This document shows positions 40,659 to 56,494 of a stretch of DNA of 64,000 nucleotides, piece by piece. Within the stretch, counting starts at the first letter, position 1. Every line of letters begins with the position of its first letter. Both the position numbers and the translations under genes were made by a program. Under the pieces are notes generated by a model. It did not search any database. It was not told the DNA's origin and worked only from the letters and a program-made list of their open reading frames with translations. Origin of the DNA: Rhizobium sp. FKL33 (GTDB lineage Bacteria > Pseudomonadota > Alphaproteobacteria > Rhizobiales > Rhizobiaceae); the NCBI RefSeq assembly GCF_005222915.1, contig NZ_STFX01000006.1:186001-250000 (forward strand). Direction: 5' to 3'.

Positions 40659-40673
40659 CAGGAACTTTACATC

Positions 40674-41648
40674 ATGTCTGACATATCCCAGAACGCCGCA
40701 GCGTCATCATCCCGGTTCCTCGGATCGCTGTCCTTGCGCGACGCCGGCACGCTGATCGGATTGGTCACCATCGTGGTGATCTTCGGGTTGCTGGCGCCGG
40801 ATTTCCTGTCGCAGCGCAATCTGTTGAATATCCTGCAGCAATCGAGCATCAACGCCTGCCTGGCGCTGGGAATGACCCTGGTGATCATCTCAGGCGGCAT
40901 CGACCTTTCGGTCGGGCCGACCGCAGCCATCGCCGCCGTCGTCACGGCCACGCTGCTGGTCGCGGGCGTTCCGATCCCGCTGGCCATCCTCGCCGGCCTC
41001 GGCATCGGCGTGTTGTGCGGGCTGGTCAATGGGGTGCTCGTCGCCTATGCCGGCCTTCAGCCGTTCATTGTGACGCTCGGCACGCTCTCGACCTACCGCG
41101 CCATCGCGCTGATCTATACGGGCGGCAATCCTGTCCTCGGCGTTCCCCAGGGGTTCCGGACGCTGTTCAACGGGTCGGTTGCCGGGATTCCGAACTCGGT
41201 CATCATGGTGGCCATCGTCGCGCTCCTTGCCTGGATCCTGCTGAAGAAGACGCCGCTCGGCGAATATCTGCTCGCCGTCGGCGGCAATGAGGAAGCGGCT
41301 TATGTCGCCGGCGTGCCGATCGCGATCACCAAGATCACCGCCTATGTGATTTCTGGCGTTCTCGCCGCGCTCGCCTCGATGGTCCTGATCGGCCGCCTGG
41401 GCGCCGCCGAACCGATCCTCGGAAATCTCTGGGAGCTTGATGCGATCGCCGCAGCGGCCATCGGCGGGGCGTCCCTGATGGGCGGCAAAGGCAGCGTGAT
41501 CGGCACGTTGTTGGGCGCGATCATTCTCGGCGCGATGCGCAACGGATTGACGTTGATGAATGTCCAGGCCTTCTATCAACTTCTCGCCACCGGCCTTATT
41601 ATCCTTGTCGCGATGATGATCGATCGCGTCACAAGGGGACGGGGATGA
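40674..41648 (+). CDS. Sugar ABC transporter permease (RbsC-like)
   Basis: 324 residues with about ten helices. The motif GMTLVIISGGIDLSVGP and the later AAAAIGGASLMGGKGSVIGTLLGA are standard for CUT2 permeases (parts quoted). It forms the membrane channel as a homodimer with the RbsA-like ATPase. Its last 4 bp overlap the start of the RpiR gene. Confidence 0.92.
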   Translation: MSDISQNAAASSSRFLGSLSLRDAGTLIGLVTIVVIFGLLAPDFLSQRNLLNILQQSSINACLALGMTLVIISGGIDLSVGPTAAIAAVVTATLLVAGVPIPLAILAGLGIGVLCGLVNGVLVAYAGLQPFIVTLGTLSTYRAIALIYTGGNPVLGVPQGFRTLFNGSVAGIPNSVIMVAIVALLAWILLKKTPLGEYLLAVGGNEEAAYVAGVPIAITKITAYVISGVLAALASMVLIGRLGAAEPILGNLWELDAIAAAAIGGASLMGGKGSVIGTLLGAIILGAMRNGLTLMNVQAFYQLLATGLIILVAMMIDRVTRGRG

Positions 41649-42517
41649 ATTCAGCAGATGACCTCAAGGCGGTGGGCCCGCGCATCCGAATGATGATGCC
41701 GAAGCTCACCCCCCTCGAGGCGCGGGTGGTGGAGACGGTGTTCGGCTTGAGAGATTTCTCGGAGGACACCGCTCTCAAGGACCTGGCGGCGGAGGCCGGC
41801 GTGTCCGAAGCGATGGTGGTCAAGATCACCAAGAAACTGGGCTTCAGCGGCTATCGTGAATTTCGCACCGCCGTGTCCAGCTATATCCGGCTGCCGACGG
41901 CGGAAATGCATCAGGAGCTCTCGGCGGAGGACAGCACCCGGGAAATCATCCAGAAGGTTTTCCGCACCTCGATCAACGCGCTGGAGGAGACTCTCTCCAT
42001 TCTCGACGTCGAGGGCTTCGATCGGGCTGCCGACCTTCTGGCGAAGGCTCGGCAGATTGACTTTTACGGCGTGGGCGGATCCGCCCAGATCGCGCGCGAC
42101 GTGGCGCACAAATTCTTGAGGATCGGGGTTCGCGCCAATGTCCAGGACGATTCGCATATGATGCTGATGTCGGCCTCGCTCCTGGGAACGGACGACGTGG
42201 CGATCGGCTTTTCCCATTCCGGCAACACTACGGCGGTGATCGATGCGATCCAGCTGGCGCGGAAAAGCGGCGCGCGGACGATCGCCATAACCAATTACGG
42301 TGGTTCGGCGCTGGCCCAGATCGCCGATATCGTGCTCTGTTCGACGGCGCAGGGATCTCCCCTGATGGGCGAAAACGCCGCCGCGCGCATCGCGCAGCTC
42401 AACATCCTCGACGCGCTGTTCATGGCGGTCGCACAAAGAAATTACGAGGCGGCCGAGAGAAATCTCGAAAAGACGATGTCCGCCGTCACATCCAAACGCA
42501 AGGACAAGTTTCCATGA
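41645..42517 (+). CDS. MurR/RpiR family transcriptional regulator
   Basis: 290 residues. The N-terminal helix-turn-helix (about 15-90; LKDLAAEAGVSEAMVVKITKKLG region) is joined to a SIS sugar-isomerase-like domain (about 115-260; DFYGVGGSAQIARDVAHKF and FSHSGNTTAVID). The SIS domain probably senses a phosphosugar made by the kinase encoded next. The start and stop each overlap the neighbouring genes by 4 bp, so it is an integral, autoregulated part of the operon. The palindrome at 36984-37009 is its most likely operator. Confidence 0.9.
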   Translation: MNSADDLKAVGPRIRMMMPKLTPLEARVVETVFGLRDFSEDTALKDLAAEAGVSEAMVVKITKKLGFSGYREFRTAVSSYIRLPTAEMHQELSAEDSTREIIQKVFRTSINALEETLSILDVEGFDRAADLLAKARQIDFYGVGGSAQIARDVAHKFLRIGVRANVQDDSHMMLMSASLLGTDDVAIGFSHSGNTTAVIDAIQLARKSGARTIAITNYGGSALAQIADIVLCSTAQGSPLMGENAAARIAQLNILDALFMAVAQRNYEAAERNLEKTMSAVTSKRKDKFP

Positions 42518-43419
42518 CCACGCAAACGCCCTCCGTCGTCGTTTTCGGCAGCCTCCACTACGATATCATGGTGCATGGCCCGGCGCGCCCGCGCAAAGGC
42601 GAGACGGTCACGGGCAGCAGCTGGCGGCCGAAATGCGGCGGCAAGGGCGGAAACCAGGCGGTCTCCGCCGCAAAGACCGGCGTGCGCTCGCATATGATCG
42701 GCGCCGTCGCCGATGACGATTTCGGCCGCGCCCTCATCGACAACCTCGCTCAGCGCAATGTCGACCATCGTTTCGTCAAACAAGCGCCCGGCGTCGCAAG
42801 CGGCATGAGCGTCGCGATCTTCGACAGCGAGGGCGACTACGGCGCGGTGATCGTCTCGGGCAGCAATCTGACGCTCGGCCAGGCAGATGTCGATGCGGCG
42901 CGTGAAGTCTTCACTCCAGGCGGCGTTCTCGTCTTGCAGAACGAGGTGCCCGATCACGCCAATGTCGCCGCCGCGCGGGCGATGAAGGCGGTTGGCGGCC
43001 GCGTCATCCTCAATGCGGCGCCGGCCCGTCCGTTGTCGGAAGACCTCGAGCGGCTGGTGGATGTGCTTGTTGTCAACGCCATCGAAGCCGAACAATTGGC
43101 CGAGACGCCTGTCGTCGACACATTGGCGGGCGCGCTCGCGGCGGCCAAGCTGTTGACCCGAACTTTTCCCGTCGTCGTCGTCACCGCCGGCGGCGAAGGC
43201 GTCGCCTGCGCAAGCCAAGCAGGGGAGGAAATCTCCATCGACGCCATCAAGGTGAAGCTCGTGAGCACGCATGGCGCTGGCGATGAGTTTACCGGCGTCC
43301 TCGCCGCCGAACTCTCTCGTGGAAAGGACATCCGCACGGCCTTGGTTTCCGCCAACGCGGCGGCTGCGGTTCTGGTGAGCACGCCGCTTCCCGATGGCAA
43401 TGGCCGTCAATCATCTTGA
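42514..43419 (+). CDS. PfkB-family (ribokinase-like) sugar kinase
   Basis: 301 residues of the ribokinase/PfkB family. The glycine-rich KCGGKGGNQAVSAAKTG substrate loop is near residue 35, and the catalytic HGAGDEFTGVLAAEL motif, with its Asp base, is near 250. It resembles ribokinase most, so it probably phosphorylates the imported monosaccharide. It overlaps the RpiR gene by 4 bp and is the last gene of the operon; a 7-bp stem-loop follows at once. Confidence 0.88.
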   Translation: MTTQTPSVVVFGSLHYDIMVHGPARPRKGETVTGSSWRPKCGGKGGNQAVSAAKTGVRSHMIGAVADDDFGRALIDNLAQRNVDHRFVKQAPGVASGMSVAIFDSEGDYGAVIVSGSNLTLGQADVDAAREVFTPGGVLVLQNEVPDHANVAAARAMKAVGGRVILNAAPARPLSEDLERLVDVLVVNAIEAEQLAETPVVDTLAGALAAAKLLTRTFPVVVVTAGGEGVACASQAGEEISIDAIKVKLVSTHGAGDEFTGVLAAELSRGKDIRTALVSANAAAAVLVSTPLPDGNGRQSS

Positions 43420-43543: not shown

Positions 43544-44509
43544 TCATTCTTCTGCAGCAAGGCTCATCGCGGTCTGCTCATCAGTGATGAACGTCGTCGG
43601 CGAAACCGTTCGAATGGCTGCCTTGAGCGCAACGACCTTTTCCTTGCCGCCCGAAATCAAAACGCGCTCCGGCGTGCGGCTGAGACGGGTGGGATTGACG
43701 GAGATCACCCGAGAATTAACTTCGTGATCAAGGATTTCGCCGTTTTTGCCGATGAAGTTATAGAGCACATCGCCGACGGCCCCGGCTTCGATCAGGGAGC
43801 GCCGGTCGGCTTCGCTGATATAGCCGGCGCGATAGCTGGTGGTCAGCGTCGAGATGCCGCCGACGGAGAGCAGCGCGACATCGAGTTTGTCAGCCATTTC
43901 GAAGATCGCCGCCAGGCCGCAGCGCTCCAGCAAGGCGTGCTTGGTTTCAATACTGTCGACGACCGCAGGCGCGGGCACGAGATAACCGTCGCCTTGAAAC
44001 AGTTCCGCGAACTGCCAGGCGAATTCGGCCGGGTTGAACCGGCGGGCGGCGGCGATGCCGCCCAGCAGCGAGACGACGCGAAAATCCTCGAGCGTGCCGC
44101 CATTGATGAAAGGCAGGGTGTTGTAGAGCGTGCGCCCCCAGCCCACGCCCACCGTCAGTCCGGATTTCATGATGCCGGAAATGAAATTGCCAGCTGCGGC
44201 GGCGATGACGCGAACGGGATCGCCGTCGGGATCGGAAAAGGGCGCCACGATGACCCGATTGATGCCGAAGCGTTTCTCGACATTCCGTTCCAGCTCCACC
44301 AGCTCCGCAAGCGGAGCCGAGACGGTCACCCGGACCTCGTTGCGCCGCCGCGCATCGGCCAGCGCCCTCACGACCATCACCCGGTTGATGCCGAGCTGGT
44401 TGGCGATCTCGTTTTGCGTCAGACCCTCAACATGATAGAGCCAGACTGCGCGAGCACGAATTCGATCGGCATCGCTCTGCACGCCAGTCAAGGGTTGCGC
44501 CACTTGCAT
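43544..44509 (-). CDS. SorC/DeoR family sugar-binding transcriptional regulator
   Basis: 321 residues. The N-terminal helix-turn-helix (about 25-50; GLTQNEIANQLGINRVMVVRAL) is joined to a SorC-type sugar-binding domain (about 60-315; GVGWGRTLYNTLPF, LLGGIAAARRFN). It lies 27 bp after the E2 gene as last gene of the minus-strand operon, so it is probably autoregulated. Likely targets are the inverted repeats in the divergent region 49500-49748. The effector should be the phosphorylated or oxidised sugar of this cluster. Confidence 0.9.
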   Translation of the reverse strand: MQVAQPLTGVQSDADRIRARAVWLYHVEGLTQNEIANQLGINRVMVVRALADARRRNEVRVTVSAPLAELVELERNVEKRFGINRVIVAPFSDPDGDPVRVIAAAAGNFISGIMKSGLTVGVGWGRTLYNTLPFINGGTLEDFRVVSLLGGIAAARRFNPAEFAWQFAELFQGDGYLVPAPAVVDSIETKHALLERCGLAAIFEMADKLDVALLSVGGISTLTTSYRAGYISEADRRSLIEAGAVGDVLYNFIGKNGEILDHEVNSRVISVNPTRLSRTPERVLISGGKEKVVALKAAIRTVSPTTFITDEQTAMSLAAEE

Positions 44510-44536
44510 CCTCGGTGTGTCCTCCTTGAGACATCG

Positions 44537-46162
44537 TCATACGGACACCATGGCGGACACGATATGTCGGCGGATGATTTTGGCAAGCCGCTCAGGGCAC
44601 TCGATCTGCGGCGTATGACCCGTATTGTTCAGGAGATGAATACCAAAATCCCCATCAACCGCAAGCGCATGGCGGCTCGGAAGAATATGATCGCGCTTGC
44701 CCCACACAACCGTCGTGGGAATAGCGAGACGTCCGAGCGCTGGGCGCAGATCGAATGACTGTACGCCGTCGGGGAACAGGGTGTCGCAGAGATCCGTCTG
44801 ATAGTGGCGCAACTGTGGGTCCATGCGCTGCCTCATGGCCGCTTTTGCATAGTCGTCGCTGACACCCTCCGGATCTGCTGTGAGCCGCCTGAGCCAGGGG
44901 GCGAGACTTTCGACGCGCGACGCCCGGGCAATGCCATTGAGGGTGGGACCGTCGATTTCGGGCCCCAAGCCCCCCGGCGCTATCAGAGACAGAGAGGCGA
45001 CCATCTTGGATCTGATGTCGGCGATGGCGATGGCGATCGCCCCCCCAAGGGAATGGCCGACAAGGTGGACAGGTCCCGAACCGACTTCCGCGTCCACAGT
45101 CCGACCGACCAGCTTCGCAAGTTCGGCGAAACTGCCGATTTTTAGCCTGGGCGATTTTCCATGGCCGGGAAGATCGATACGGATGAGCGGATTGGGCAGG
45201 CTCAACGCGCGTTCGAACGGGGTCCAGCTCGGGCTATCCGCCGCAAAGCCGTGAATAAGCACGATCGGGGCGCCCTGGCCGTTCCGGCGCGACACATGCA
45301 GCGGACCGCCTTCGGCGCTCCATCGAGACGTCTGCATGGGCGCTGTTTCGACTCGTCTCTCGAGATGGCGGCGCACATCCCCTGCCTGAATTCGCCCGAG
45401 CGGCCCCGTGCCGGAGACGTCGGAAAGCGAAAGCGCCGCTTTGCGCGCCTCGGCGCGCGCCGCCGGCGTCGCGCGCAGACTGTCCGCCAATGAACTCGTC
45501 ACACTGGCGTCCGCCATCCGCTGTGGCGCTTGGGAGGATGGCGGCGCGTCAGTGGATGTTGCTGCAGGGGTTGGCGATGGCGGGACGATCGCCTCTGCGG
45601 CCGACGGACGATCCAGTTGAACCCCTGGCGGGCAGATGTAAGCAATGACCTGCCCCACCGGCACACGGTCGCCGGGAGCGGCGCTCACATGCTGCAGCAC
45701 GCCCGTAGCCGGGGCTTCCACCTCCATGGCCGCCTTGTCCGTCTCGATATCGAAGAGCGGCGCGCCTTTTTCGACATGAGCGCCTTCGGCGACATGCCAG
45801 ACCGCGATCTGACCCTCGGTCATGTCCATGTCGACCTTGGGAAGGATGACCTCGACCGCTTCAGAGGCCGTCGTCGCCGGATCGGCGGGCGCGGCGACGC
45901 CCTCCCCGACCGGCGCGCTTTCGCCCTCGGCAAGAAGGAAAGCGACCACGGAACCCACGGGAACTCTGTCGCCCGGCTGGGCCGTCACCGCGCTCAATCG
46001 TCCGCTGGCGGGGGCTTCCACCTCCATCGCCGCTTTGTCGGTTTCGATGTCGAACAAAGGCGCGCCTTTTTCCACATAGTCGCCTTCCGCGACATGCCAG
46101 GTCGCGAGCGTGCCATGGGTCATGTCCATGTCCACTTTCGGCAGGATCACCTCGACAGGCAT
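44537..46162 (-). CDS. Acetoin dehydrogenase-like E2: two lipoyl domains fused to an alpha/beta hydrolase
   Basis: 541 residues from the ATG at 46162. Two tandem lipoyl domains (about 1-80 and 100-180) each carry the DKAAM lipoylation motif, and a shared stretch around it is identical, suggesting recent duplication. A peripheral subunit-binding segment (about 235-275; VSGTGPLGRIQAGDV) follows. The last ~250 residues are an alpha/beta hydrolase (VLIHGFAAD, VGHSLGG, late His in NNTGHTPQIE) in place of the usual CoA acyltransferase domain. This is the AcoC architecture. It would transfer an acyl group from E1 to CoA. E3 is not in the window. Confidence 0.88.
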   Translation of the reverse strand: MPVEVILPKVDMDMTHGTLATWHVAEGDYVEKGAPLFDIETDKAAMEVEAPASGRLSAVTAQPGDRVPVGSVVAFLLAEGESAPVGEGVAAPADPATTASEAVEVILPKVDMDMTEGQIAVWHVAEGAHVEKGAPLFDIETDKAAMEVEAPATGVLQHVSAAPGDRVPVGQVIAYICPPGVQLDRPSAAEAIVPPSPTPAATSTDAPPSSQAPQRMADASVTSSLADSLRATPAARAEARKAALSLSDVSGTGPLGRIQAGDVRRHLERRVETAPMQTSRWSAEGGPLHVSRRNGQGAPIVLIHGFAADSPSWTPFERALSLPNPLIRIDLPGHGKSPRLKIGSFAELAKLVGRTVDAEVGSGPVHLVGHSLGGAIAIAIADIRSKMVASLSLIAPGGLGPEIDGPTLNGIARASRVESLAPWLRRLTADPEGVSDDYAKAAMRQRMDPQLRHYQTDLCDTLFPDGVQSFDLRPALGRLAIPTTVVWGKRDHILPSRHALAVDGDFGIHLLNNTGHTPQIECPERLAKIIRRHIVSAMVSV

Positions 46163-46163
46163 G

Positions 46164-47177
46164 TCAGACCTCGCCGCCGAGCAGACGGCGGGCCGCCGCC
46201 TCGATCGTGTCGACCTGCGGCACCGAGGCGCGCTCCAGGTCGGGATTATAGGGCACCGGCGCTTCCGCGCCGCCAAGCCTCAGGATCGGCGCATCGAGAA
46301 AGTCGAAGGCGTCGCTTTCCGCCACCATCGCGCTGATCTCGGCGCCGACGCCGTAGCTCTTGACGCCCTCATAGACGACCATCAGTTTGCCGGTCTTGCG
46401 CACCGAAGCGAGGATCGTGTCGCGATCGATCGGGCGAACCGATCTGAGATCGATGACTTCGACATCCTTGCCGTCAGCCGCAAGCCGCTCGGCCGCCTCG
46501 AGCGCGCGATGCACCATGATCGAGCTGGCGACGATGGTGAGATCTTTGCCCTGCCTCCGCACCGCCGCCTTGCCGATCGGCACGGTGTAATGCCCCTCAG
46601 GCACATGGCCCTTCATCTTGTAGAGGAGCTTGTGCTCGAAAATCAGCACCGGATCGGGATCGGCGAGCGCCGCCAGCAGAAGGCCCTTGGCGTCTTCCGG
46701 CGTGGAGGGCTGGACGACCTTGAGACCGGGAACATGGCCGAACCAGGCCTCCAGGCTCTGGCTGTGCTGCGCCGCGGCGCCCGTGCCGGATCCCGCCGGC
46801 ATGCGGAAGACGACCGGCACCGAGGCCTCGCCGCCCAGCATGTAGCGAAGCTTGGCGGCCTGATTGACGATCTGCTCCATAGCGAGCGCCGCGAAGTCGG
46901 AAAACTGAAATTCGAAGATCGGCTTCAAGCCGGTCAGCGCCGCGCCGACCGCCACGCCCGCGCCGCCGAGTTCGGAAATCGGCGTGTCCATCACCCGATC
47001 GGTTCCGTATTTGTCGACCAGATCGAGCGTCACCTGGAAGGCGCCGCCATAGACGCCGATGTCCTCGCCCATCAGGATCACCGTGGGATCGGCGTCCATG
47101 GCGAGCGACATCGCTTCGCGGATGGCTTCAGAGTAAGACAGCGTGCGTTCTTCGATGTTTCGCGCGATAGCGTTCAT
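46164..47177 (-). CDS. Acetoin/2-oxoacid dehydrogenase E1 beta subunit
   Basis: 337 residues from the ATG at 47177, one base after the E1-alpha stop; a longer in-frame start at 47198 would lie inside the alpha gene. It is a transketolase-pyrimidine and C-terminal fold of the AcoB/PdhB family, with [18 protein letters not shown] near the start and [14 protein letters not shown] in the cofactor region. With E1-alpha it forms the thiamine diphosphate site. It lies one base from the E2 gene. Confidence 0.92.
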
Positions 47178-47178
47178 C

Positions 47179-48177
47179 TCAGGCCTCTGCATAAACATAG
47201 CGGGTCACTTCGCCGATCGACGGCGCGAGGCTCGCTTTGGCGAATTCGATTCCGGCCGCCACTTCGGCGACGGCTGCTTCTTCGATCGACTTGGCGCCCG
47301 CCTCGTCCAGTATTCCATGGCCGATCAGGTCCGCGCGGAAGCGGGCGATGGGGTCACGCGCCATCCATTCCTCGATCTCCTCCTTGGTCCGGTAGCGGTT
47401 GCGGTCGGATTTGGAATGGCCGCGCCAGCGATAGGTGAGGTTTTCGACGAGGCTCGGGCCTTCGCCGGCGCGGGCGCGGGCGATCGCATGATGCACGGCC
47501 TCGGCGACGGCGGAAAAATCATTGCCGTCGACAGTGACGCCCGGCATGGAATAGGCGGCCGCGCGCTCGGCGATATTCTTCACGGCAGTCGATCGGGACA
47601 CGGCGGTGGACATACCGTAGCGATTGTTTTCGCAGACGAAGATCACCGGCAGTTTCCAGATGGCCGCCATGTTGAGCGCTTCGTGGAAGGCCCCTTCATT
47701 GTTGGCGCCGTCGCCGAAGAAGCAGATCGTCACGTCGGTCTTGCCCAGGCGCTTGGCTGAGAGCGCCGCACCGACCGCGATCGGCAGGCCGCCGCCGACG
47801 ATGCCATTGGCGCCGAGATTGCCGGTCTTCACATCGGCGATATGCATCGAGCCGCCGCGGCCATGGCAATAACCGGTCTCCTTGCCGAAGAATTCCGCGA
47901 ACATCCGCCCGACATCAGCGCCTTTGGCGATGCAATGTCCGTGACCACGATGGGTGGAGGTGATCTTGTCCTGATCCGTAAGCTCGATGCAGGTCGCCAT
48001 GGCGCTGGCTTCCTGGCCGATCGACAGATGCATCGTGCCGTGAATGAGGCCGCGCATATAGCTCTCTTCGGCGCCCTCTTCGAAACGCCGGATCAGAAAC
48101 ATGCGCTTGAGCGCTTCCCGCAATTGGTCGGGAGAATAGGTGCGGATGGCGAAGGGTCTGTTGTCCGGCGCGGTCAT
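47179..48177 (-). CDS. Acetoin/2-oxoacid dehydrogenase E1 alpha subunit
   Basis: 332 residues from the ATG at 48177, 2 bp after the SAF-oxidoreductase stop. The thiamine diphosphate motif [20 protein letters not shown] is complete (GDG...NN), as is [13 protein letters not shown] in the active-site region. Its length and compactness match AcoA rather than the longer Pdh alpha of aerobic complexes. It carries out decarboxylation or C-C cleavage next to a carbonyl. Placement in a sugar cluster suggests a substrate derived from a sugar or polyol. Confidence 0.92.
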
Positions 48178-48179
48178 GA

Positions 48180-49499
48180 TCAAAGCCCCAGCATGGCGTC
48201 TTGGCGAGCGCGCAGCGCGGCGATTTTGCTGTCGGCCGGGACCGAGGCATTGGCGGTGGTGATCAACTCGCCCTTCTTGATCGGACGGGTAACGGTTGCG
48301 CCAGCCAGGAGGCCGCAGGGAATGGCGCCGGCCGATTTCGCGTCCTCCACCGTCATGATCCAGGCGCGATAGCAATATTCGCCGATCTGATCGAGACGGT
48401 CGCCCGGCTGCAGGTCCTTCTTGGCGAGCGCGCCCACTTCGGCGACCGGCCGGGGCAGAGGCTGCATGTCGGCCTTGCCGTAAAGCACGACGCGGGCGCA
48501 GGTCAGGGGCACTTCGAGCGACGTCAGGTGATAAGGACGGAAGAAGGTGAAATAGGGGCCTTTGCCCATCTTCAGATCTTCCATGCGCTCCCAGATGCGC
48601 GGATGATCCATCTCGGCGACGACAAAAACGCCCGGAGCTACGCCCTTGCCGATGGTGAAGTCGACGCGTCCTTCCGACGAGGACAAGACGCCGCCGGCGC
48701 TTTCGGGGATCAGAACCTTGTTGAGCTCTTCGCGGCTGCAGGCGGGGCCGTGCATGCCGGGCTTGTCGGGGGTAAGGCCTGTGGCGTTGGCGATGGCCGC
48801 CATTTCCACCATGGTCTTGGAGCCGTCGACGAATTCCACCAGCATGCGCGGGTTCATATGACGGTCAGACGCTTCCTTCGCATAGGCGTCAGGCGTCGCG
48901 TCGATGTTGAGCGGGTTGTTCTTGCCCTTGCCGGCGCTGATGATCCGGTGGCCCATGGCGCTGACGAACTCGATGAGCTCCATGCAGCTCGACGGCTCGT
49001 CACCGGCGCCGAGCGAATAGACCACGCCCAGCCGCTCCGCCTCGGCGCGAAGATAGGCGCCGATGGTGATGTCGGCCTCGACATTCATCATCACGAGATG
49101 CTTGCCGCGCTCCATTGCGGTCAGACCGATCTCGGCGCCGACGGCGGGAATGCCCGTGGCGTCGACCACGACATCGATGAGGCCTGCATCGAGAAGCGCG
49201 TTCACATTGTCGGTGATGGCGACTTTGCCTTGCTCCATCGCCGCGTTGGCCTGATCGCCATTGCTCACCTCGACGACCCGCTCCTTGTCGCCATAGGCGA
49301 TTTCGACCGATCTCTGGGCGGCGCCGGGCTTCAATTCGCTGATCGCGCCGATCTGGACGCCATTCATATGCGCGACGCGGCTCACGATGTCGGTGCCCAT
49401 CTCGCCAGCGCCGACCAATCCGATGCGTATGGGTTTTCCAGAGTCCGCTCTGGCGGCGAGATCGCGGGCGAGGCCCGTGAGGGCGACATTCGTAGGCAT
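48180..49499 (-). CDS. Homoserine dehydrogenase-like oxidoreductase with C-terminal SAF domain
   Basis: 439 residues from the ATG at 49499 (GGAGGAAATC upstream). The N-terminal Rossmann fold (IRIGLVGAGEMGTDI near residue 25) is followed by a homoserine dehydrogenase-like middle, and a SAF domain occupies the last ~80 residues. This matches COG4091 (predicted homoserine dehydrogenase with SAF domain). The real substrate is unlikely to be homoserine here: the gene starts an operon with AcoABC-like enzymes and faces a sugar ABC importer. Oxidation of a sugar or sugar acid hydroxyl is more likely. The SAF module suggests a carbohydrate-like ligand. Confidence 0.82.
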   Translation of the reverse strand: MPTNVALTGLARDLAARADSGKPIRIGLVGAGEMGTDIVSRVAHMNGVQIGAISELKPGAAQRSVEIAYGDKERVVEVSNGDQANAAMEQGKVAITDNVNALLDAGLIDVVVDATGIPAVGAEIGLTAMERGKHLVMMNVEADITIGAYLRAEAERLGVVYSLGAGDEPSSCMELIEFVSAMGHRIISAGKGKNNPLNIDATPDAYAKEASDRHMNPRMLVEFVDGSKTMVEMAAIANATGLTPDKPGMHGPACSREELNKVLIPESAGGVLSSSEGRVDFTIGKGVAPGVFVVAEMDHPRIWERMEDLKMGKGPYFTFFRPYHLTSLEVPLTCARVVLYGKADMQPLPRPVAEVGALAKKDLQPGDRLDQIGEYCYRAWIMTVEDAKSAGAIPCGLLAGATVTRPIKKGELITTANASVPADSKIAALRARQDAMLGL

Positions 49500-49748
49500 G
49501 ATTTCCTCCAAGGTTATGGCCTTGGTTATTGCACATTTGTTTTTTCTGTCAACATAAGTTTATGCTGCATTGCGGCGATGATTGTCTGAAAAGGAGGATT
49601 GACAGGGGTATCAATCCGTACATAGTGTATATCTGTGAAACTAAAGTTCACTTCAGGCAACAGACGCGGGGGAAACGGAGTCGCGTCCTGATGTTCCGCC
49701 TGGAAGGCTTGTCACTCGACGCGAGTGACGTTTGGGAGGATTCTGACG
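49500..49748. promoter_or_regulatory. Divergent control region of the SAF/AcoABC and sugar importer operons
   Basis: 249 bp without a gene. For the plus strand, TTGACA (49599-49604) and TAGTGT (49623-49628), 18 bp apart, form a good sigma-70 promoter. GTGAA-N7-TTCAC (49635-49651) covers the expected start point and ATTGA-N8-TCAAT (49598-49615) overlaps the -35 box. GTCACTCG-N3-CGAGTGAC (49711-49729) lies in the leader 20 bp before the binding protein's start. These are probable SorC sites or RNA hairpins. Confidence 0.6.
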
Positions 49749-51302
49749 ATGACATTGTTCAAACAAAGCGTATCCCGTCGCTCGTTTCTGCGCACCACCG
49801 CCACGGTGGGTCTTGCAGCGGGAGCGGCCGGCTTGAAACTGCCGGCTTTCGCGCAGTCCAATCTGCCTGACATCCAGGCGACGCTCGACAAGATCTCGGT
49901 CGACGGTTATGTGCGCGAGGATTACCGCAAACTCTACAAGCTGAGCTCCGATCCGCTGTGGGATCCGGCCAAGGACTGGATCCGCACCGTCGACTGGGAG
50001 AAGGTCCGGTCCGAGCAGTCCGGCAAGACGGTTCGCTTCGCCATCGGCGCCGCCGACCAGGATTCCGCCGCCGAGGGCCTCAAGCCCTTCGAAGCGCTGT
50101 CGGGCATCAAGGTCGAACTCGTGCCGATCCCGGACGACAGCTTCTATGACAAGGCCGTCGCCGAATTCGTGTCCGGCAACGCGTCCTTCGACGCGCTGCA
50201 GTTCTTCTCGCCCTGGCTCGGCGATTTCGCCGCTCCGGGATTCCTCGCCGAACTCGACGACTACGCCGCCAAGTGGAAGCTGCCGCTTGACGATTTCTAC
50301 GACACCTATCGCCTGAACTACGGTTACTTCGGCGGCAAGCTCGTCGGCATTCCCTTCGACTGCGACATCCAGATGGTGCATCTGCGCAAGTCGATCGTCG
50401 AAAAGATCCTCGGCGGGCCGATCGACAAATCCAAGTCCGTTCCTTCCTATGACGAACTCATCCGCATCAGCGGCGAGGCCAACAAGCTCGGCGGCGGCGT
50501 GGCCGGCCTCGGCATGATGCTCGCCCGCGGCTTCTGGTCGACCTACACCTGGGAGCATATCGGCGCTCAGGCCGGGCTGAAGCTGTTCGACGAACAGTGG
50601 AATCCACAACTCGCTTCCGACGCAGGCATGAAGGCCATGGACATTATCATGGCGCTGCAGAAGAATGCGATCGAGGGAACCTCTGGCGCAGGCTGGGGCG
50701 AAAACCGCGCTGCATGGTTGGGAGGCCAGGTTGCGACCAATATCAGCTGGCAGGATTCGGGAACGCAGGCCATGCGGCCCGACCAATCGAAAATCGTCGA
50801 CGATTTCGTCACCATCTATGAGCCGCGCATCGCCGGCGGCGTCTTCGCTCCGCCGAACATCGCGGGCTCGACGTCCTGCGTCGCCGCAACCTCGCAGAAC
50901 CCGGAAGGAGCATTTCTGATGCTCGCCTTCCTCACCACCTCCTCGATCATGGCCATGAACGAAGCAAACGCCAACGGCGTCGCCCCCGGCTATCGTTCGG
51001 TGCTCGGCAACGAAAGGCTGCGCGCCATCTCGCAGCCGATGGAAGTCTGGGCCAACAGCCTCGAACACGCCTGGTGCGCCCCGCGCCTGCCCGGCATGTT
51101 CGAAATGGAGCAGGCGCTCGGCAACGAGATCAACCGCGCCGTGACCGGCCAGATTTCCGCCAAGGAAGCGCTCGAAAACGGCCAGACCGCCTGGAAGAAG
51201 ATCATGGAGAAGAACGGCTTCTCGGGCGGCAAGGCGCCGGTCGCTTACGCGGATGTCGCACCCGGCATGTATGTCGGCGCCGGCAAGCCGCTGCCGTTCT
51301 GA
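49749..51302 (+). CDS. Sugar ABC transporter substrate-binding protein (family 1, Tat signal)
   Basis: 517 residues from the ATG at 49749 with GGGAGG upstream. The twin-arginine signal SRRSFLRTT, a hydrophobic stretch and LPAFAQS mean export in folded form. The mature protein is an extracellular solute-binding family 1 fold, longer than usual (typical 400-450), with the RFAIGAADQDSAAEGLKPFEALSGI segment typical of sugar binding (partly quoted). The permease gene follows 7 bp later with no hairpin, unlike other binding-protein genes here. Confidence 0.9.
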   Translation: MTLFKQSVSRRSFLRTTATVGLAAGAAGLKLPAFAQSNLPDIQATLDKISVDGYVREDYRKLYKLSSDPLWDPAKDWIRTVDWEKVRSEQSGKTVRFAIGAADQDSAAEGLKPFEALSGIKVELVPIPDDSFYDKAVAEFVSGNASFDALQFFSPWLGDFAAPGFLAELDDYAAKWKLPLDDFYDTYRLNYGYFGGKLVGIPFDCDIQMVHLRKSIVEKILGGPIDKSKSVPSYDELIRISGEANKLGGGVAGLGMMLARGFWSTYTWEHIGAQAGLKLFDEQWNPQLASDAGMKAMDIIMALQKNAIEGTSGAGWGENRAAWLGGQVATNISWQDSGTQAMRPDQSKIVDDFVTIYEPRIAGGVFAPPNIAGSTSCVAATSQNPEGAFLMLAFLTTSSIMAMNEANANGVAPGYRSVLGNERLRAISQPMEVWANSLEHAWCAPRLPGMFEMEQALGNEINRAVTGQISAKEALENGQTAWKKIMEKNGFSGGKAPVAYADVAPGMYVGAGKPLPF

Positions 51303-51309
51303 GGCGATA

Positions 51310-52245
51310 ATGGCTACTTACGCAAGCAGCCAGACCGCAGGGGCGCATCGCGCCGCCCCTGCGCGTCCGTACAAGCGACGTTCGCCCCTGCTGCGGGCCG
51401 CCTTCCCCTACCTGCTCGTCGCACCCGCCCTGATCTATCTTCTGGCGATCACGCTCTATCCCGGCGTCTTCGCAATCTATCAAAGCCTGTTCGTCGTCAA
51501 ATTCGTCAAATGGACCTGGGCGGGCTTCGACAACTACATCGAGATCCTCCAGGATCGCGAATTCTGGGCCGCGCTCGGCAACACGCTGATCATCGGCGGC
51601 ATTTCGCTCTGCCTGCAGACGGTGATCGCGCTGGCCATCGCTTATTTCGCCTATCGGGATCCCATGGTTCGCGGCTGGCGCATCGTGTTCCTGATGCCGA
51701 TGTTGTTCATGCCGTCCGCCGTCGCTTTCATCTGGAAGCTCGCCTTCAATGACGGGCGGGTGATTTCAGATCTCCTGATGCATCTCGGCATCGTCAGCGG
51801 CAATGTCGACTGGCTTGGTTCCGTCTGGCTGGCGCGGTTGACGCTGATCGTCGCCGACGTCTGGCAGTGGACCCCCTTCCTGTTCATCATCTTCGTCGCT
51901 GCTTTGCAGGGCCAAGATCAGGAAATCGAGGAAGCGGCGCGTCTCGACGGCGCGTCCTGGCCGGCGATCTTCTGGAACATCTCCCTGCCGATGATGCGGC
52001 CGGTGATCGTGGTCGCGGTGACGCTGCGCGCCATCGACATCACCACAATGTTCGCCAATGTCTTCATCATGACGCAGGGAACGCCGGGCGGGACCACGGA
52101 AACCATGAGTTATTTCATTTATCGAACCGGTTTCCGCATGTTCAACTTCGGTTACGCCTCGGCCGCCTCGGTCCTGATGCTGATCATCACCATTGTCCTG
52201 GCGCAGACGATCGTCAAGCGCGCCTTCCATTCGGGGAAGAGCTGA
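51310..52245 (+). CDS. Sugar ABC transporter permease (UgpA/MalF-like)
   Basis: 311 residues from the ATG at 51310 (GAGGCG upstream). About six helices follow a basic N-terminus (ARPYKRRSPLLRAAF). The EAA loop is in EIEEAARLDGASWPAIFWNI. It forms a CUT1-class channel with the permease encoded next. The stop overlaps that gene's ATG (TGATG). Confidence 0.9.
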   Translation: MATYASSQTAGAHRAAPARPYKRRSPLLRAAFPYLLVAPALIYLLAITLYPGVFAIYQSLFVVKFVKWTWAGFDNYIEILQDREFWAALGNTLIIGGISLCLQTVIALAIAYFAYRDPMVRGWRIVFLMPMLFMPSAVAFIWKLAFNDGRVISDLLMHLGIVSGNVDWLGSVWLARLTLIVADVWQWTPFLFIIFVAALQGQDQEIEEAARLDGASWPAIFWNISLPMMRPVIVVAVTLRAIDITTMFANVFIMTQGTPGGTTETMSYFIYRTGFRMFNFGYASAASVLMLIITIVLAQTIVKRAFHSGKS

Positions 52246-53087
52246 TGGCTTCCGTACGTAGGACCCGTGGCGAAAGCCTTCTGATCCGTTACCTGATCCT
52301 CGGCGCCTGGGCGCTGGTCTGCCTGGCCCCGATCCTGTGGTTCATGACCATCGCCTTCCGCCCGAGAACCGAGATCATCACCACATCGCCGATCTATTTC
52401 CCGACCTTCTCGCTCGACGCCTGGCGTCAATTGCTGGAAGACTGGCCGATCGGGAAATATCTGCGCAACTCGCTCGTGGCGGTCACCGGCTCGGTGATTA
52501 TCGATCTCGCGCTGGCGATCCCGGCCGCCTTCGCCCTTTCCCGATACGAGTTCAAGGGGCGCGAGGATATCGGCTTCTATATCCTCTCCACCCGGATGAT
52601 GGCCCCTGCGATCGTGGCGATCCCGATCTTCTTCCTGTTCAAGAAACTCGGACTGCTCGATTCCGTCTGGGCGTTGATGCTGGTCTACGCCGCGGTCAAT
52701 CTGTCGCTGGTGACCTGGATCATCCGCAGCTACATGCTGGATATCCCGAAAGAGCTGGAGGACGCGGCCCGCACCGATGGCGCTGGCGACTTGACGATCC
52801 TCCGGGAAATCATCATTCCCGCCTGTCTGCCCGGCATCATCACCGCGGCGGTCATCGCGGCGATCTTCGCGATCAACGAGTTTCTCTTCACACTGCTTCT
52901 CGCCTCCACCGAGAACGCCTATACGATGTCGGTCGCGCTCGCCAATTTCACCGGCGGCTCCGACGGCGTCATTTACAATGCCATAGCCCTCGTCTCCTTC
53001 CTCGCCTTTGCGCCGATCCTGATCCTGGTTGTCCTCATCCAGAAGCATCTGTCGCGCGGCCTGACGATGGGCGCTGTGAAAGGATAA
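52245..53087 (+). CDS. Sugar ABC transporter permease (UgpE/MalG-like)
   Basis: 280 residues from the ATG at 52245, overlapping the previous stop by 1 bp. About six helices; the EAA loop is in PKELEDAARTDGAGDLTILREII, the standard MalG form. It pairs with the UgpA-like permease. It ends 3 bp before the ATPase gene. Confidence 0.9.
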   Translation: MASVRRTRGESLLIRYLILGAWALVCLAPILWFMTIAFRPRTEIITTSPIYFPTFSLDAWRQLLEDWPIGKYLRNSLVAVTGSVIIDLALAIPAAFALSRYEFKGREDIGFYILSTRMMAPAIVAIPIFFLFKKLGLLDSVWALMLVYAAVNLSLVTWIIRSYMLDIPKELEDAARTDGAGDLTILREIIIPACLPGIITAAVIAAIFAINEFLFTLLLASTENAYTMSVALANFTGGSDGVIYNAIALVSFLAFAPILILVVLIQKHLSRGLTMGAVKG

Positions 53088-53090
53088 GCC

Positions 53091-54134
53091 ATGGGTTCGA
53101 TCAAGCTTCAGAACATCGTCAAGCGATACGGCGCCTTCATCGGCGTCCAGCATATGTCGCTCGACATCGAAGACGAGGAATTCCTCGTTCTGCTCGGCCC
53201 TTCCGGCTGCGGCAAGACCACCACCATGCGGATGATCGCCGGTCTGGAGCAACCCAGCGAAGGCGAGGTCATCATCGGCGGCGAGGTGATGAACGACATC
53301 GACGCCCGCGACCGCGACGTCGCCATGGTGTTTCAGGGCTATGCTCTCTACCCCAACATGTCGATCTACGAGAACATCCGCTTTCCCCTGCGGATGCGGA
53401 AGATCCCCGCCGACAAGCATGACCAGATGATCCGCAACGCCGCCGCCATGGTGGAGCTCGGCGAATATCTCGACCGCAAGCCGTCCGCGCTGTCAGGCGG
53501 CCAGCGTCAGCGCGCGGCTCTTGCCCGCGCCGTGGTGCGCCAGCCCCAGGTCTTCCTGATGGACGAGCCTTTGTCCAATCTCGACGCCAAGCTGCGCGCC
53601 TCGATGCGGGTGCAGATCAAGCATCTTCAGCGCCAGCTGAAAGTGACGACCGTTTATGTCACGCATGACCAGATCGAGGCGATGACGCTCGCCGACCGGA
53701 TCGTGATCATGAACCGGGGCGTGATCCAGCAGGTCGGGACGCCGGACCAGATCTATTCCGATCCCGCCAACACCTTCGTCGCGGGCTTCATCGGCAGTCC
53801 GCCGATGAACCTGATCGAAGGCGTCGCAAGCGGGGGAACCTTCAACGCGCCGGGCGTCTCCGCGCCCTGCCCCGCCTATGTGTCCGGACCTGCCACGCTC
53901 GGCATTCGCCCCGAAGACTGCCGCGTGACGGAAGGCGGATATATCAACGGAACCGTCTATGGCGTCGAGCCGACCGGCGACGTCACCTATCTGACCATTT
54001 CCGCTGGCGCAAAACAAATCGAGGTCAAGGCCGACAGACAGTTTCGCCGCGATATCGACGCCCCAATCGGCATCAGCTTCGATCTGGCGAACACATTCTT
54101 CTTCGATCAGGCCGGGCAGCGGATACGAGGCTAA
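53091..54134 (+). CDS. Sugar ABC transporter ATP-binding protein (UgpC/MalK-like)
   Basis: 347 residues with Walker A GPSGCGKTT, signature LSGGQRQRAALARA, Walker B FLMDEPLSNLDAK and the H-loop VTHDQIEA. A C-terminal TOBE/MalK regulatory region follows (LGIRPEDCRVTE). It drives the CUT1 importer formed by the two upstream permeases. It lies 3 bp upstream of the PfkB kinase gene. Confidence 0.92.
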   Translation: MGSIKLQNIVKRYGAFIGVQHMSLDIEDEEFLVLLGPSGCGKTTTMRMIAGLEQPSEGEVIIGGEVMNDIDARDRDVAMVFQGYALYPNMSIYENIRFPLRMRKIPADKHDQMIRNAAAMVELGEYLDRKPSALSGGQRQRAALARAVVRQPQVFLMDEPLSNLDAKLRASMRVQIKHLQRQLKVTTVYVTHDQIEAMTLADRIVIMNRGVIQQVGTPDQIYSDPANTFVAGFIGSPPMNLIEGVASGGTFNAPGVSAPCPAYVSGPATLGIRPEDCRVTEGGYINGTVYGVEPTGDVTYLTISAGAKQIEVKADRQFRRDIDAPIGISFDLANTFFFDQAGQRIRG

Positions 54135-54137
54135 GTC

Positions 54138-55097
54138 ATGGCGCCGAAATTTGACTACACCTCCATGGGCTTCATCACTTTCGACGCCCTCTGCCGCCCC
54201 GTCACCGCCATTCCTCCGGGCGGCGACACCTATTTCGTCGATGAATTCACGCTGGCCGTGTCCGGCGCGGCCGGCAGCGCCGTCATCGTCGCCGCCAAGC
54301 ATGGTCTCAAGGCGCGCGCCGTGGGGGGCGTCGGCCATGACGACATGGGCGACTGGGTGCTGATGAAACTTGCAAGCTTCGGCATCGACATCGCACTGAT
54401 GAGCCGATGCGAGGGCTTCACCACCTCTTCCTCCGTCGTCACCACCCGGCCAGATGGCCAGCGTCCCGCTCTGCACAAGCGCGGCGCGACCGACGGTTTC
54501 TTCATCGAGGATTCCGAGATCGACGACCTCCTTGATACGAAGATCCTGCATGTCGGCGGCGTCGGGCTGATGAACCGCATGGACGACAGCGGACGCACCC
54601 GCGAGATCATGGCGGAGGCGCGGCGTCGCGGCGTGATCACCACCCTCGACGTCTTCGCCTCGACAAAGGCGGACCTTCCGAAGGTCGAAGCGCTTTTGCC
54701 CTATACCGACTATTTCCTTCCATCCGAGGAAGAGGCTGCAGCGCTGTCGGGGCTCACAAACAATCGCGAACTGGCGCAGTTCCTGATCGATCGAGGCGCA
54801 AAAAGCGTCATCCTCACAATGGGCGGCAATGGCGCCTATTATCTCGACAGCGACGGCCAGGAAATTCGATCGCAGGCCTATGAGGTGGACGTGAAATGCA
54901 CCTGCGGCTGTGGCGATTGCTTCAATGGCGGCTTTGCCACAGGATTGCTGAAGGGTCTGCCGCTGCCGGAAGCCGTCGATCTCGGCCAGGCGTCCTCTGC
55001 GCAAAATGCGACCGGGCTCGGCAGCCAGGCCGGCGTGCGCGACTATGCGACGACGACAGAATTCATGCGCAGGACGAGACGCCGCGCGTTGCTCTGA
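54138..55097 (+). CDS. PfkB-family carbohydrate kinase
   Basis: 319 residues of the ribokinase/PfkB family. The usual DTTGAGD catalytic motif reads KCTCGCGDCFNGGF near residue 255: the GxGD core with the Asp base is kept, but the segment is Cys-rich. It probably phosphorylates the sugar imported by the ABC system 3 bp upstream. Because the divergent arm instead oxidises and cleaves its substrate, the kinase may act on a different branch or on the cleavage product. Confidence 0.85.
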   Translation: MAPKFDYTSMGFITFDALCRPVTAIPPGGDTYFVDEFTLAVSGAAGSAVIVAAKHGLKARAVGGVGHDDMGDWVLMKLASFGIDIALMSRCEGFTTSSSVVTTRPDGQRPALHKRGATDGFFIEDSEIDDLLDTKILHVGGVGLMNRMDDSGRTREIMAEARRRGVITTLDVFASTKADLPKVEALLPYTDYFLPSEEEAAALSGLTNNRELAQFLIDRGAKSVILTMGGNGAYYLDSDGQEIRSQAYEVDVKCTCGCGDCFNGGFATGLLKGLPLPEAVDLGQASSAQNATGLGSQAGVRDYATTTEFMRRTRRRALL

Positions 55098-55158
55098 GGC
55101 TTCCCCCTGGGGCGGCTTTGGATTAAGTTCTCGTCGTCTGCAATGGAGTTGACAAGAG

Positions 55159-55869
55159 GTGACATCGCCACGGCCCAATCTGATCGACCCCGTCCCGCTC
55201 CGCGAAATGCTGCGTGGCATCCGCTTCATGGTCAAGCGGGGCGGAGAAGCGTTGAAATCGCGCGCCACGGCCGACCGGCTGCCCAAGCCGGCGGCGGATT
55301 TCGCCAATGCTTTGCTCGACGAGATGATGGGGCTGGGACACAAGGTCAACGCCCAGGTCTCCGTCCTGGCCAAATCGATGATCGGCGCCGAACCCGATTC
55401 CGACATCCTGCTGGCGGATCTGACGACACAGGAAGAGCCTGCAGCCCTGTTCGCGGCGACGGTTTACCCGGCGCTGAAGCTCGTAACGGCGCGCATGTCT
55501 CTTTCATCGGTATTCGTGAGCGAAACGGCGGCCCGCAAGGCCTTCGGCCAGACGATCGCGACGTCGACGCCGTCATCCGGAGCGGACTTGGCCGCAGCGC
55601 TCACATTCGCGATGCTGGACACGGAGGTGTTGCAGGGGCGCATGACCAGCGAGACCAGGATTTTGACCGGCGAGGAAGCGATCGCCGTGGCCGTTTTCGC
55701 GGTGCTTCTCTGGCTCCAGTCCCCCCGCGACGAGGCCGATCAGGAGATGGCGCTAATGTCGGCCGTCGATTTGTCGCAGGTCTTCGCCAGACAGATCGTC
55801 ACGGCCTGCAAGGCGCGAGATGCAGGAGCACTGGCTGCGCTCTATCTGAAGTATGCGGACAATGTCTGA
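55159..55869 (+). CDS. Uncharacterised protein, first of an overlapping pair
   Basis: 236 residues from a GTG at 55159; GGAG lies about ten bases upstream. The protein is largely helical by composition, without a signal peptide. The N-terminal third is basic (MVKRGGEALKSRATADRLPK), the middle alternates Ala/Leu-rich helices, and a hydrophobic segment near 170-190 (AIAVAVFAVLLWLQS) may be buried or membrane-associated. I do not recognise the family. It follows the kinase gene by 61 bp and overlaps the next gene by 8 bp, so the two are coupled. Confidence 0.65.
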   Translation: MTSPRPNLIDPVPLREMLRGIRFMVKRGGEALKSRATADRLPKPAADFANALLDEMMGLGHKVNAQVSVLAKSMIGAEPDSDILLADLTTQEEPAALFAATVYPALKLVTARMSLSSVFVSETAARKAFGQTIATSTPSSGADLAAALTFAMLDTEVLQGRMTSETRILTGEEAIAVAVFAVLLWLQSPRDEADQEMALMSAVDLSQVFARQIVTACKARDAGALAALYLKYADNV

Positions 55870-56494
55870 TCAGTTCAAACCGATAGCGCCCCTTCCGCCG
55901 ACCAACGAACCCTATCGCGTCGCGGTGCGCCGGTTACGCTGGTTCAAGGCCGCCTTTCTGAGGTTCGTGGAGACGCAGGAAGACGAACTCGGCTGCGAAT
56001 TCAGCGTAGATGGAGCCAAGATCGCCGCAGTCTTCGTACGATGGCTGGAAATGATCGACCGCCAGCGGCCGAGCGACAAGAGCGAACGCCCTGCCTTCTT
56101 CGCCTTCGCCGCCTCGCTGATGTTTCGCGAACTGATCGCCGACATGCCGATCAAGGCCCGCGGTCCCGCAACGAAACCCGATCCAGACGCGCCGAGCGCC
56201 TTCTGGCCAGAGGGCTATGTCTGCACCATGTTCTGCCTCTCCGTCCACGCAGCGGCCATGGAGCAGGAATTTCACCTGCAAACCCATGTAGCGCCCGATA
56301 TCGACAATATCCGGTCGTGGTGGTCCTTCCGGGAGAACGCCCAGGAAAACGGCAGCTTCGCCGCGGGCTTCCTGCAAAAAATGCTCGGCTATGAGCCCAA
56401 CTGGTTCATGCCGGCGTCCTTCATTTCAAGGATCGGCGACTGGCTGGTTTCTCCGGAAACGACATCGAACAACGAGACGCTGCAACGGCTCTAG
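55862..56494 (+). CDS. Uncharacterised protein, second of an overlapping pair
   Basis: 210 residues from the ATG at 55862 (another ATG at 55853 is possible). It is a soluble, Trp/Phe-rich protein (PYRVAVRRLRWFKAAFLRFVE, PSAFWPEGYVCTMF, IRSWWSFRENAQENGSF; parts quoted) with no signal peptide. I do not recognise the family. It overlaps the previous gene's end by 8 bp and is followed by the convergent histidine kinase gene 66 bp away. Confidence 0.65.
   Translation: MSDQFKPIAPLPPTNEPYRVAVRRLRWFKAAFLRFVETQEDELGCEFSVDGAKIAAVFVRWLEMIDRQRPSDKSERPAFFAFAASLMFRELIADMPIKARGPATKPDPDAPSAFWPEGYVCTMFCLSVHAAAMEQEFHLQTHVAPDIDNIRSWWSFRENAQENGSFAAGFLQKMLGYEPNWFMPASFISRIGDWLVSPETTSNNETLQRL

Follow-up and report, generated by a model that had tools for sequence, protein, structure and literature searches.

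A type II DXP reductoisomerase joined to an acetoin dehydrogenase-like complex in Rhizobium sp. FKL33 and its relatives: a proposed catabolic route for 2-C-methyl-D-erythritol

The 64,000-nucleotide stretch of contig NZ_STFX01000006.1 of Rhizobium sp. FKL33 analysed here (the window) contains, as one part of it, a divergent gene cluster in which a sugar importer and a PfkB-family kinase face a type II 1-deoxy-D-xylulose 5-phosphate (DXP) reductoisomerase (DXR-II or DRL), the E1 and E2 components of a thiamine pyrophosphate (TPP)-dependent dehydrogenase complex, and a SorC-family regulator. We suggest that this operon probably serves the catabolism of 2-C-methyl-D-erythritol (ME) or of a closely similar branched polyol. 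The enzyme families are known, and their combination would give a new pathway that is apparently undescribed; no paper on such a pathway was found in the open-access literature (titles and starts of abstracts, among the matches listed), which is weak evidence of absence.

In the proposed route, the CUT1-type ATP-binding cassette (ABC) system would import ME, the PfkB kinase would convert ME and ATP to 2-C-methyl-D-erythritol 4-phosphate (MEP), and DXR-II, running backwards, would convert MEP and NADP+ to DXP; the reactions of DXR are reversible. Because DXP is an alpha-ketol like acetoin (CH3-CO-CH(OH)-R), E1 could attack it at the keto group, releasing glyceraldehyde-3-phosphate and retaining an acetyl unit that would pass through the lipoyl-E2 to CoA (overall, DXP + CoA + NAD+ to acetyl-CoA + glyceraldehyde-3-phosphate). 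The lipoate would be reoxidised by an E3 encoded elsewhere in the genome, and the SorC regulator would sense a sugar phosphate and control both arms of the cluster. A sequence-only reading of the same DNA had sketched uptake of a sugar, its oxidation to an alpha-hydroxyketone or diketone, and cleavage to acyl-CoA and an aldehyde. That outline fits the gene content and is revised here as follows: since the oxidoreductase is a DXP reductoisomerase of type II, we predict a rearrangement of the carbon skeleton from MEP to DXP in place of a plain oxidation; a branched polyol, probably phosphorylated first, is a likelier nutrient than an ordinary sugar; and the products, left unspecified, are most likely an acetyl group and glyceraldehyde-3-phosphate. 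ME is the simplest nutrient that a transporter and a kinase turn into MEP, and it occurs in plants both free and as glucosides, according to the available portions of PMC11192765 and PMC10534317.

The oxidoreductase, previously described as a COG4091 protein with a SAF domain, is more exactly a DXR-II, judged by domain, identity and residues. It matches PF21135 (Oxidoreductase DRL, catalytic domain; 222.7 bits, cut-off 27), its N-terminal NAD(P) domain matches NAD_binding_3 (34.7 bits, cut-off 24), and a C-terminal SAF match scores 20.1 bits, just below the cut-off of 21. A phmmer search relates it to the solved Brucella enzyme 3upy with an E-value of 2.3e-196, and the full alignment with Brucella DXR-II has 297 identities over 438 positions (68%). 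Nine residues taken from the accessible sections of PMC3847144 (G121, E174, F178, K191, K193, T229, H250, R320, and Y322) were checked; all nine are kept in the window protein and in all 103 sequences labelled as linked (a label that requires at least one E1 gene, and that here includes L186 and L073). As a control, 20 DLO2-like paralogues from the same order keep K191 and K193 and have Ser at position 229, Trp at position 178, and no His at position 250, each in 20/20. The same sections report that four DLO sequences were unable to complement a DXR mutant. The characterised DXR-II/DRL enzymes of Brucella and relatives (PDB 3upy/3upl) share with the window protein the family, the full length, the level of identity, and the nine residues; they differ in context, since the known role of Brucella DXR-II is MEP synthesis for isoprenoids, whereas the window DRL is redundant with DXR-I and sits in an import and cleavage operon.

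The association of DRL with E1 is beyond chance. The nearest loci (L002-L081, from GTDB species, with 73-99% identity in DRL) are the best 80 of a set of at least 569 and were chosen for closeness. In 74 of these 80, E1-alpha follows within 400 bases downstream of DRL on the same strand, and in 6 it is absent. Both E1-alpha and E1-beta are present in 73/80, and E2 as well in 69/80. For a wider view, 297 genomes spread evenly over the order were searched and, among the matches listed, all with the short envelope typical of DXR-II were taken, giving 77 loci in 61 genomes, of which the 76 besides the window were fetched; the tree places them on the DXR-II side. By similarity, E1-alpha and E1-beta accompany DRL in 25/77 of these loci, or 24/77 once L186 is dropped. 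In that locus (genome G278), the E1 genes are about 4 kb from DRL, lack the E1-beta mark described below, and are of another kind. One of the 24 (L157) has its E1 genes 3 kb from DRL and divergent. No E1 was found in 52 of the 76 fetched loci, nor near a DLO2-like paralogue in any of 20 loci. A phylum-wide sample of 398 genomes added no breadth: matches at E<=1e-70 came from 16, all of them members of the window's own order. The comparisons below set a pool of 100 linked loci (73 from the nearest set, 23 from the order sample, and 4 from named plasmids) against 64 other DRL loci; pooled loci are often close kin, so these counts are not independent. The sequence-only reading had proposed to check whether the COG4091 gene regularly keeps company with acoABC-like and SorC genes; it does so in many families, beyond close relatives. 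We note that in Phyllobacterium endophyticum a single contig carries two near-identical copies of DRL, of which one adjoins E1/E2 and a phosphotransferase system (PTS) and the other has no E1; this is a recent duplication between contexts.

The genome of the window encodes one DRL and one ordinary DXR-I, together with IspG and IspF; because DXR-I is present, the DRL looks dispensable for isoprenoid synthesis. Redundancy of this kind is usual: 18 of the 23 genomes with linked DRL in the order sample have another DXP reductoisomerase (DXR-I in 5, a second, unlinked DRL in 12, and both in 1). In the other five (G079, G165, G170, G239, and G291; estimated completeness 91-100%), IspF and IspG are present and neither DXR-I nor an unlinked DRL was found; G165 has two linked copies. 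If these genomes are complete, their linked DRL must make MEP, as no other DXP reductoisomerase was found, which supports DXP and MEP as the true substrate pair. A further 34 genomes of the order sample have only unlinked DRL and no DXR-I (L186 counted here as unlinked), as a biosynthetic role predicts. The five genomes would also suit a scheme in which the operon degrades 1-deoxy-D-xylulose, the kinase making DXP, the complex cleaving it, and DRL diverting some of it to MEP, and the kinase XylB can make DXP from deoxyxylulose (PMC3424233, in the part available). Degradation of deoxyxylulose would have no need of DRL, yet the gene adjoins E1 in 74/80 of the nearest loci and is usually redundant, and the sorbitol-type PTS found in other linked loci suggests a polyol; we consider this scheme quite improbable. 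Functional additional DXR-II paralogues in M. loti and O. anthropi are named in the accessible sections of PMC3847144, whose main text treats the enzyme as biosynthetic and has no word beginning 'catabol'.

The composition of the cleavage complex points to the product. The window E2 has two lipoyl domains (two TDKA motifs), an E3-binding domain, and an alpha/beta-hydrolase domain, and it passes the AcoC equivalog profile (Table 1). The E2 of one Mesorhizobium linked locus instead scores as a pyruvate dehydrogenase (PDH) acetyltransferase (483.6 against a cut-off of 445), and that of the Agrobacterium locus scores 445.0, equal to the cut-off. As two unrelated E2 catalytic domains both score as acetyl-transferring, acetyl-CoA is the predicted product, and the acyl group transferred is most likely acetyl. 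In E1-beta, Q98 and S100 are found in 99/99 aligned DRL-linked sequences, including that from Priestia (L186, which has neither, was excluded beforehand). In controls from 20 genomes without DRL (30 of the 38 matches listed), both residues occur together in 0/30, with Gln alone in 4 and Ser alone in 2. All six E1-beta used for comparison (one clear acetoin E1, one putative, human PDH, and three more) have Met at position 98 and residues other than Ser at position 100. We take the two positions to come directly ahead of the thiamine-stacking phenylalanine. In E1-alpha, R261 is present in 100/100 aligned linked sequences (L186 and sequences shorter than 290 residues, Priestia among them, were left out) and in 0/30 controls. 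The nearest E1-alpha paralogue in the genome, presumably that of PDH, is 38% identical, and the best E1-beta in the 20 DRL-less genomes is 55% identical.

These features bear on a rival explanation, that an acetoin or 2,3-butanediol operon happens to have unrelated sugar genes alongside. The E2 is AcoC by NCBIfam, and the E1-alpha is 47.5% identical to that of an Acinetobacter acetoin operon and 50.3% identical to that of a putative one in Enterococcus gilvus; as in the acetoin dehydrogenase complex (AcoABC and AcoL), E1-alpha and E1-beta stand with an AcoC-type E2, and the chemistry, alpha-ketol to acetyl-CoA and aldehyde, would be alike. Unlike that system, the window cluster has no acetoin reductase, butanediol dehydrogenase, AcoR or E3 (AcoL) among the 20 open reading frames (ORFs) scanned between 36934 and 60096 (57955-58791 left out), its E1-beta motif is QFSDF against MFMDF or MFNDF in the two Aco-like comparators, a DRL is present, and most linked loci have a kinase, PTS or importer. 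The linkage of DRL with a kinase or PTS recurs across families and, once, in Bacillota. We regard the acetoin explanation as very unlikely. The PDH complex is another relative, with the same E1 folds and, in the Mesorhizobium and Agrobacterium linked loci, the same type of E2; the identities given above set the window E1-alpha and E1-beta apart from it. PDH offers a precedent for the carbon-carbon step in the direction of synthesis: according to the available text of PMC3424233, the purified enzyme turns pyruvate and glyceraldehyde into 1-deoxyxylulose, and mutations in aceE restore Escherichia coli that lacks DXS, with DXP being produced. Two further loci have complexes of a related kind. A Clostridioides difficile plasmid (L228) encodes SorC, E1-alpha, E1-beta, E2, E3, and a PTS, with no DRL in the stretch and an E1-beta without QFSDF, and possibly represents a related route for another ketol. 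A Phaeobacter inhibens plasmid (L230) has E1/E2/E3, two short-chain dehydrogenases (SDR), an extracellular solute-binding protein, and an aldehyde dehydrogenase, and resembles a version of the scheme without phosphorylation.

Genes that could deliver a phosphorylated substrate recur in the linked loci. In the window the CUT1 importer is complete, comprising an SBP_bac_1 binding protein, two BPD_transp_1 permeases, and a MalK-type ATPase with OB/TOBE domains. The binding protein has a twin-arginine-like signal (SRRSFL) and is weakly akin to solved sugar binders, including the sorbitol binder 4rya (E 7e-10). The PfkB kinase reached none of the NCBIfam equivalogs (best 110.9 against a cut-off of 300). 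Linked loci of Rhodobacterales share the CUT1 ABC system and PfkB, and an Agrobacterium plasmid carries ABC genes, PfkB, DRL, E1-alpha, E1-beta, E2, E3, and lipoyl synthase, all on one strand. Terrarubrum and other alphaproteobacterial loci have instead a glucitol/sorbitol-type PTS with GutM, in several cases with a dedicated enzyme I (EI); PTS genes occur in 32/100 linked loci. A Priestia plasmid, the single Bacillota case, combines E1-E2-E3, SorC, a major facilitator superfamily (MFS) transporter, DRL, and an FGGY kinase. Overall, a PTS, PfkB or FGGY gene was recognised in 65/100 linked and 12/64 other loci (4 PTS, 8 FGGY-type). ABC with PfkB, sorbitol-type PTS, and MFS with FGGY are modules of unrelated kinds that each supply a phosphorylated sugar or polyol, as DXR-II requires. 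They also bear on the idea that the operon repairs or recycles overflow of the cell's own MEP pathway, with ME released under oxidative stress and the importer serving for recapture. Dedicated importers, some accompanied by their own EI or lipoyl synthase, look like nutrient use. Stressed plants do form ME and its glucosides, and bacteria can export 2-C-methyl-D-erythritol 2,4-cyclodiphosphate (MEcDP; PMC11192765, as far as its available text goes); we nevertheless hold recycling to be highly improbable.

The variety of importers could mean several substrates, and the same architecture might act on another branched polyol, such as the stereoisomer 2-C-methylthreitol or an apiitol-like, hydroxymethyl-branched compound, whose phosphate would be converted to a ketose phosphate and then to acetyl- or glycolyl-CoA and an aldose phosphate. 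If the product were xylulose- or ribulose-phosphate, the fsa and tkt genes of a Ligilactobacillus locus would fit. A methyl ketone is favoured by the E2s examined, all from families that transfer acetyl groups, and the DRL family residues match those of enzymes shown to make MEP; we think a different polyol rather unlikely. That Ligilactobacillus locus, on a plasmid of L. salivarius (L122), has no E1/E2 and combines DXR-II with a sorbitol-type PTS and GutM, a regulator, transketolase, and fructose-6-phosphate aldolase; perhaps it leaves the same intermediate by another path or serves a different branched polyol. Some DRL loci without E1 (L138, L167, L178, L179, L184, L188, and L195) have FGGY-type kinase matches, some with CUT1-like permeases, and perhaps form yet another catabolic layout in which cleavage proceeds differently. 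A zinc alcohol dehydrogenase and an FAD dehydrogenase of GlpD type recur beside linked DRL (in L013, L022, and L124, among others), often with PfkB and SorC; they may be part of an adjacent pathway resembling that for erythritol, or of a side branch.

Several observations weigh against catabolism of ME as we propose it. The reduction of DXP is usually drawn toward MEP, and the reverse would need a pull from the cleavage step. Neither the binding protein nor the PfkB kinase has a close characterised relative. No PTS, PfkB or FGGY gene was recognised in 35/100 linked loci (some stretches end at contig ends), and kinases also lie near DRL without E1, with an FGGY-type match in 8/64 of the other loci. 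The DXR-II loci of Listeria innocua, Ligilactobacillus, and Enterococcus raffinosus have a sorbitol-type PTS and no E1, the adjacent fsa and tkt of Ligilactobacillus suit another exit or substrate, and one further locus (L185) has a PTS and E3 and no E1. The nine DXR-II residues fail to separate E1-linked from unlinked DRL, most of the unlinked proteins keeping them. R261 of E1-alpha is Ala in Priestia and is thus only a lineage mark, and R254 of the same subunit, considered as a phosphate-binding signature, was rejected, being present in 20/30 E1 from DRL-less genomes. Four sampled genomes have only unlinked DRL beside DXR-I, which a catabolic role with E1 fails to explain. Finally, in a tree of 109 DRL and DLO rows (L186 counted as linked), the linkage label needs 12 changes, compared with a shuffled mean of 34.1; linkage to E1 is accordingly old or recurrent, and the tree gives no direction.

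In this tree the window DRL falls in a supported clade of 38 rows, of which 32 are linked, and 22 unlinked rows that include the second Mesorhizobium copies form a separate clade. Linked rows are also found in deeper clades, and Priestia groups with the Bacillota rows. A more far-reaching proposal, which we offer tentatively and would lean somewhat against, is that DXR-II was catabolic at its root, part of an old, spreading 'reverse MEP' pathway acting on plant ME; lineages like those of Brucella, Bartonella, and the second Mesorhizobium copy would have recruited DXR-II for isoprenoids on losing DXR-I, and the adjoining TPP/lipoyl complex would be the first DXP-cleaving dehydrogenase.

The regulator has a Sugar-bind domain (PF04198, cut-off 27; Table 1), with a helix-turn-helix detected only as a sub-cut-off Sigma70_r4_2 match (21.6 bits), and its solved relatives are the deoxyribonucleoside regulator, LsrR, the sorbitol operon regulator, and Lmo0547. 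Regulators of the SorC/DeoR type sense sugar phosphates. A SorC-type match was found in 64/100 E1-linked loci and 9/64 others. A palindrome search for a SorC operator gave TGAAACTAAAGTTCA at 49636-49650; the pattern occurs in 7/19 divergent spacers, which are related to one another, against 0.7 expected from mononucleotide shuffles, and this weak candidate is only a lead. Two protein families without annotation accompany the core: P0008 is found in 46/100 E1-linked loci, 1/64 others, and 0/20 DLO2-like loci, and hyp2 in 50/100, 1/64, and 0/20, respectively. They occur in 15/32 and 23/32 of the PTS-type loci and in 20/25 and 17/25 of the ABC-type loci, and since they are found with both we suggest that they belong with the core and not with one importer. 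P0008 has no Pfam match (one relative has a sub-cut-off bPH_6 match, 19.5 against 22), and the best Pfam E-value for hyp2 is 0.036. AlphaFold models P0008 as all-helical (pLDDT 84.4) and hyp2 as mostly helical (pLDDT 87.3), and a fold search with both models gave no PDB match with E<=0.001. Our guess is that they help to assemble or protect the complex.

Two other known systems deserve comparison. The products of the eryABCD genes of rhizobia and Brucella take up a C4 polyol by an ABC system, phosphorylate it, and oxidise it, steps that the proposed route would share; the window cluster differs in that its kinase is PfkB, no FGGY erythritol kinase, EryB-type or FAD dehydrogenase was found among the ORFs scanned, and the route would end in TPP/lipoyl cleavage. 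In autoinducer-2 (AI-2, lsr) degradation a phosphorylated C5 methyl ketone is split to acetyl-CoA and a triose phosphate by the thiolase-like LsrF. The likeness lies in the SorC-family regulator (LsrR being a solved relative) and in the predicted splitting of such a ketone; the window has a TPP/lipoyl complex in place of LsrF, and no Lsr enzyme was identified among the cluster genes.

ORF and profile scans located every cluster gene named in the sequence-only reading where that reading had placed it. Its start at 43544 also holds, and its end at 55097 probably falls short, since two unannotated genes probably continue the plus arm and the cluster so defined spans 43544-56494 (Table 1). The minus arm runs, closely spaced, from DRL at 49499 through E1-alpha, E1-beta, and E2 down to the regulator; the plus arm begins at 49749 with the binding protein. 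Starts were refined for E2 (46162), E1-alpha (48177), DRL (49499), permease A (51310), and permease B (52245).

Table 1. Features of the cluster, with window coordinates, strand, and basis of assignment
Feature	Coordinates	Strand	Basis
SorC/DeoR-type regulator	43544..44509	-	PF04198, 174 bits
E2, AcoC type, 541 aa	44537..46162	-	NF011457, 435.5 bits against cut-off 307; Pfam domains
E1-beta, TPP dehydrogenase beta subunit, QFSDF motif	46164..47198	-	NF006667, 395.8 bits against cut-off 321
E1-alpha, TPP dehydrogenase alpha subunit	47179..48177	-	PF00676, 305 bits
DXR-II/DRL, type II DXP reductoisomerase	48180..49499	-	PF21135, 222.7 bits; phmmer to 3upy
Divergent promoter region	49500..49748	.	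Weak operator candidate TGAAACTAAAGTTCA inside
CUT1-type solute-binding protein	49749..51302	+	PF01547, 80 bits
CUT1 permease A	51310..52245	+	PF00528; UgpA-like, below cut-off
CUT1 permease B	52245..53087	+	PF00528
MalK/UgpC-type ATPase	53091..54134	+	PF00005, MalK OB, TOBE
PfkB-family kinase	54138..55097	+	PF00294, 132.5 bits
Unannotated family 1 (P0008)	55159..55869	+	Family matches beside linked DRL; all-helical model
Unannotated family 2 (hyp2)	55865..56494	+	Family matches beside linked DRL; mostly helical model

A second sugar cluster lies on the plus strand at 36934-43419 and encodes a xylose-isomerase-like TIM barrel, a Peripla_BP_4 protein, a ribose-type ATPase and permease, an RpiR/SIS regulator, and another PfkB; several linked DRL loci are likewise bordered by ABC genes of a similar ribose type. 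The region 26035-36821, with an NMT1-like binding protein, a nitrite/sulphite-reductase-like protein, a molybdopterin oxidoreductase with a BFD domain, and sirohaem synthase, looks like a nitrate/nitrite assimilation cluster. At 56561-60096, a histidine kinase on the minus strand and, on the plus strand, a membrane fusion protein of HlyD/CusB type are probably the start of an efflux system.

The accessible sections of PMC3847144 leave open how DXR-II evolved in strains with DXR-I, redundant activities being unfavoured; a catabolic role would explain the presence of the one enzyme beside the other. If our proposal is correct, the pathway would be a sink for a C5 polyol of plants and the environment, and DXP would be a new substrate for the 2-oxoacid-dehydrogenase/acetoin-dehydrogenase superfamily. 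The annotation of DRL, now 'homoserine dehydrogenase' or 'NAD(P)H-dependent oxidoreductase', would be corrected, and two protein families without a recognised fold would be tied to one pathway. Should the more far-reaching proposal also hold, the 'reverse MEP' pathway would perhaps feed as well on methyltetrols formed from isoprene in air.

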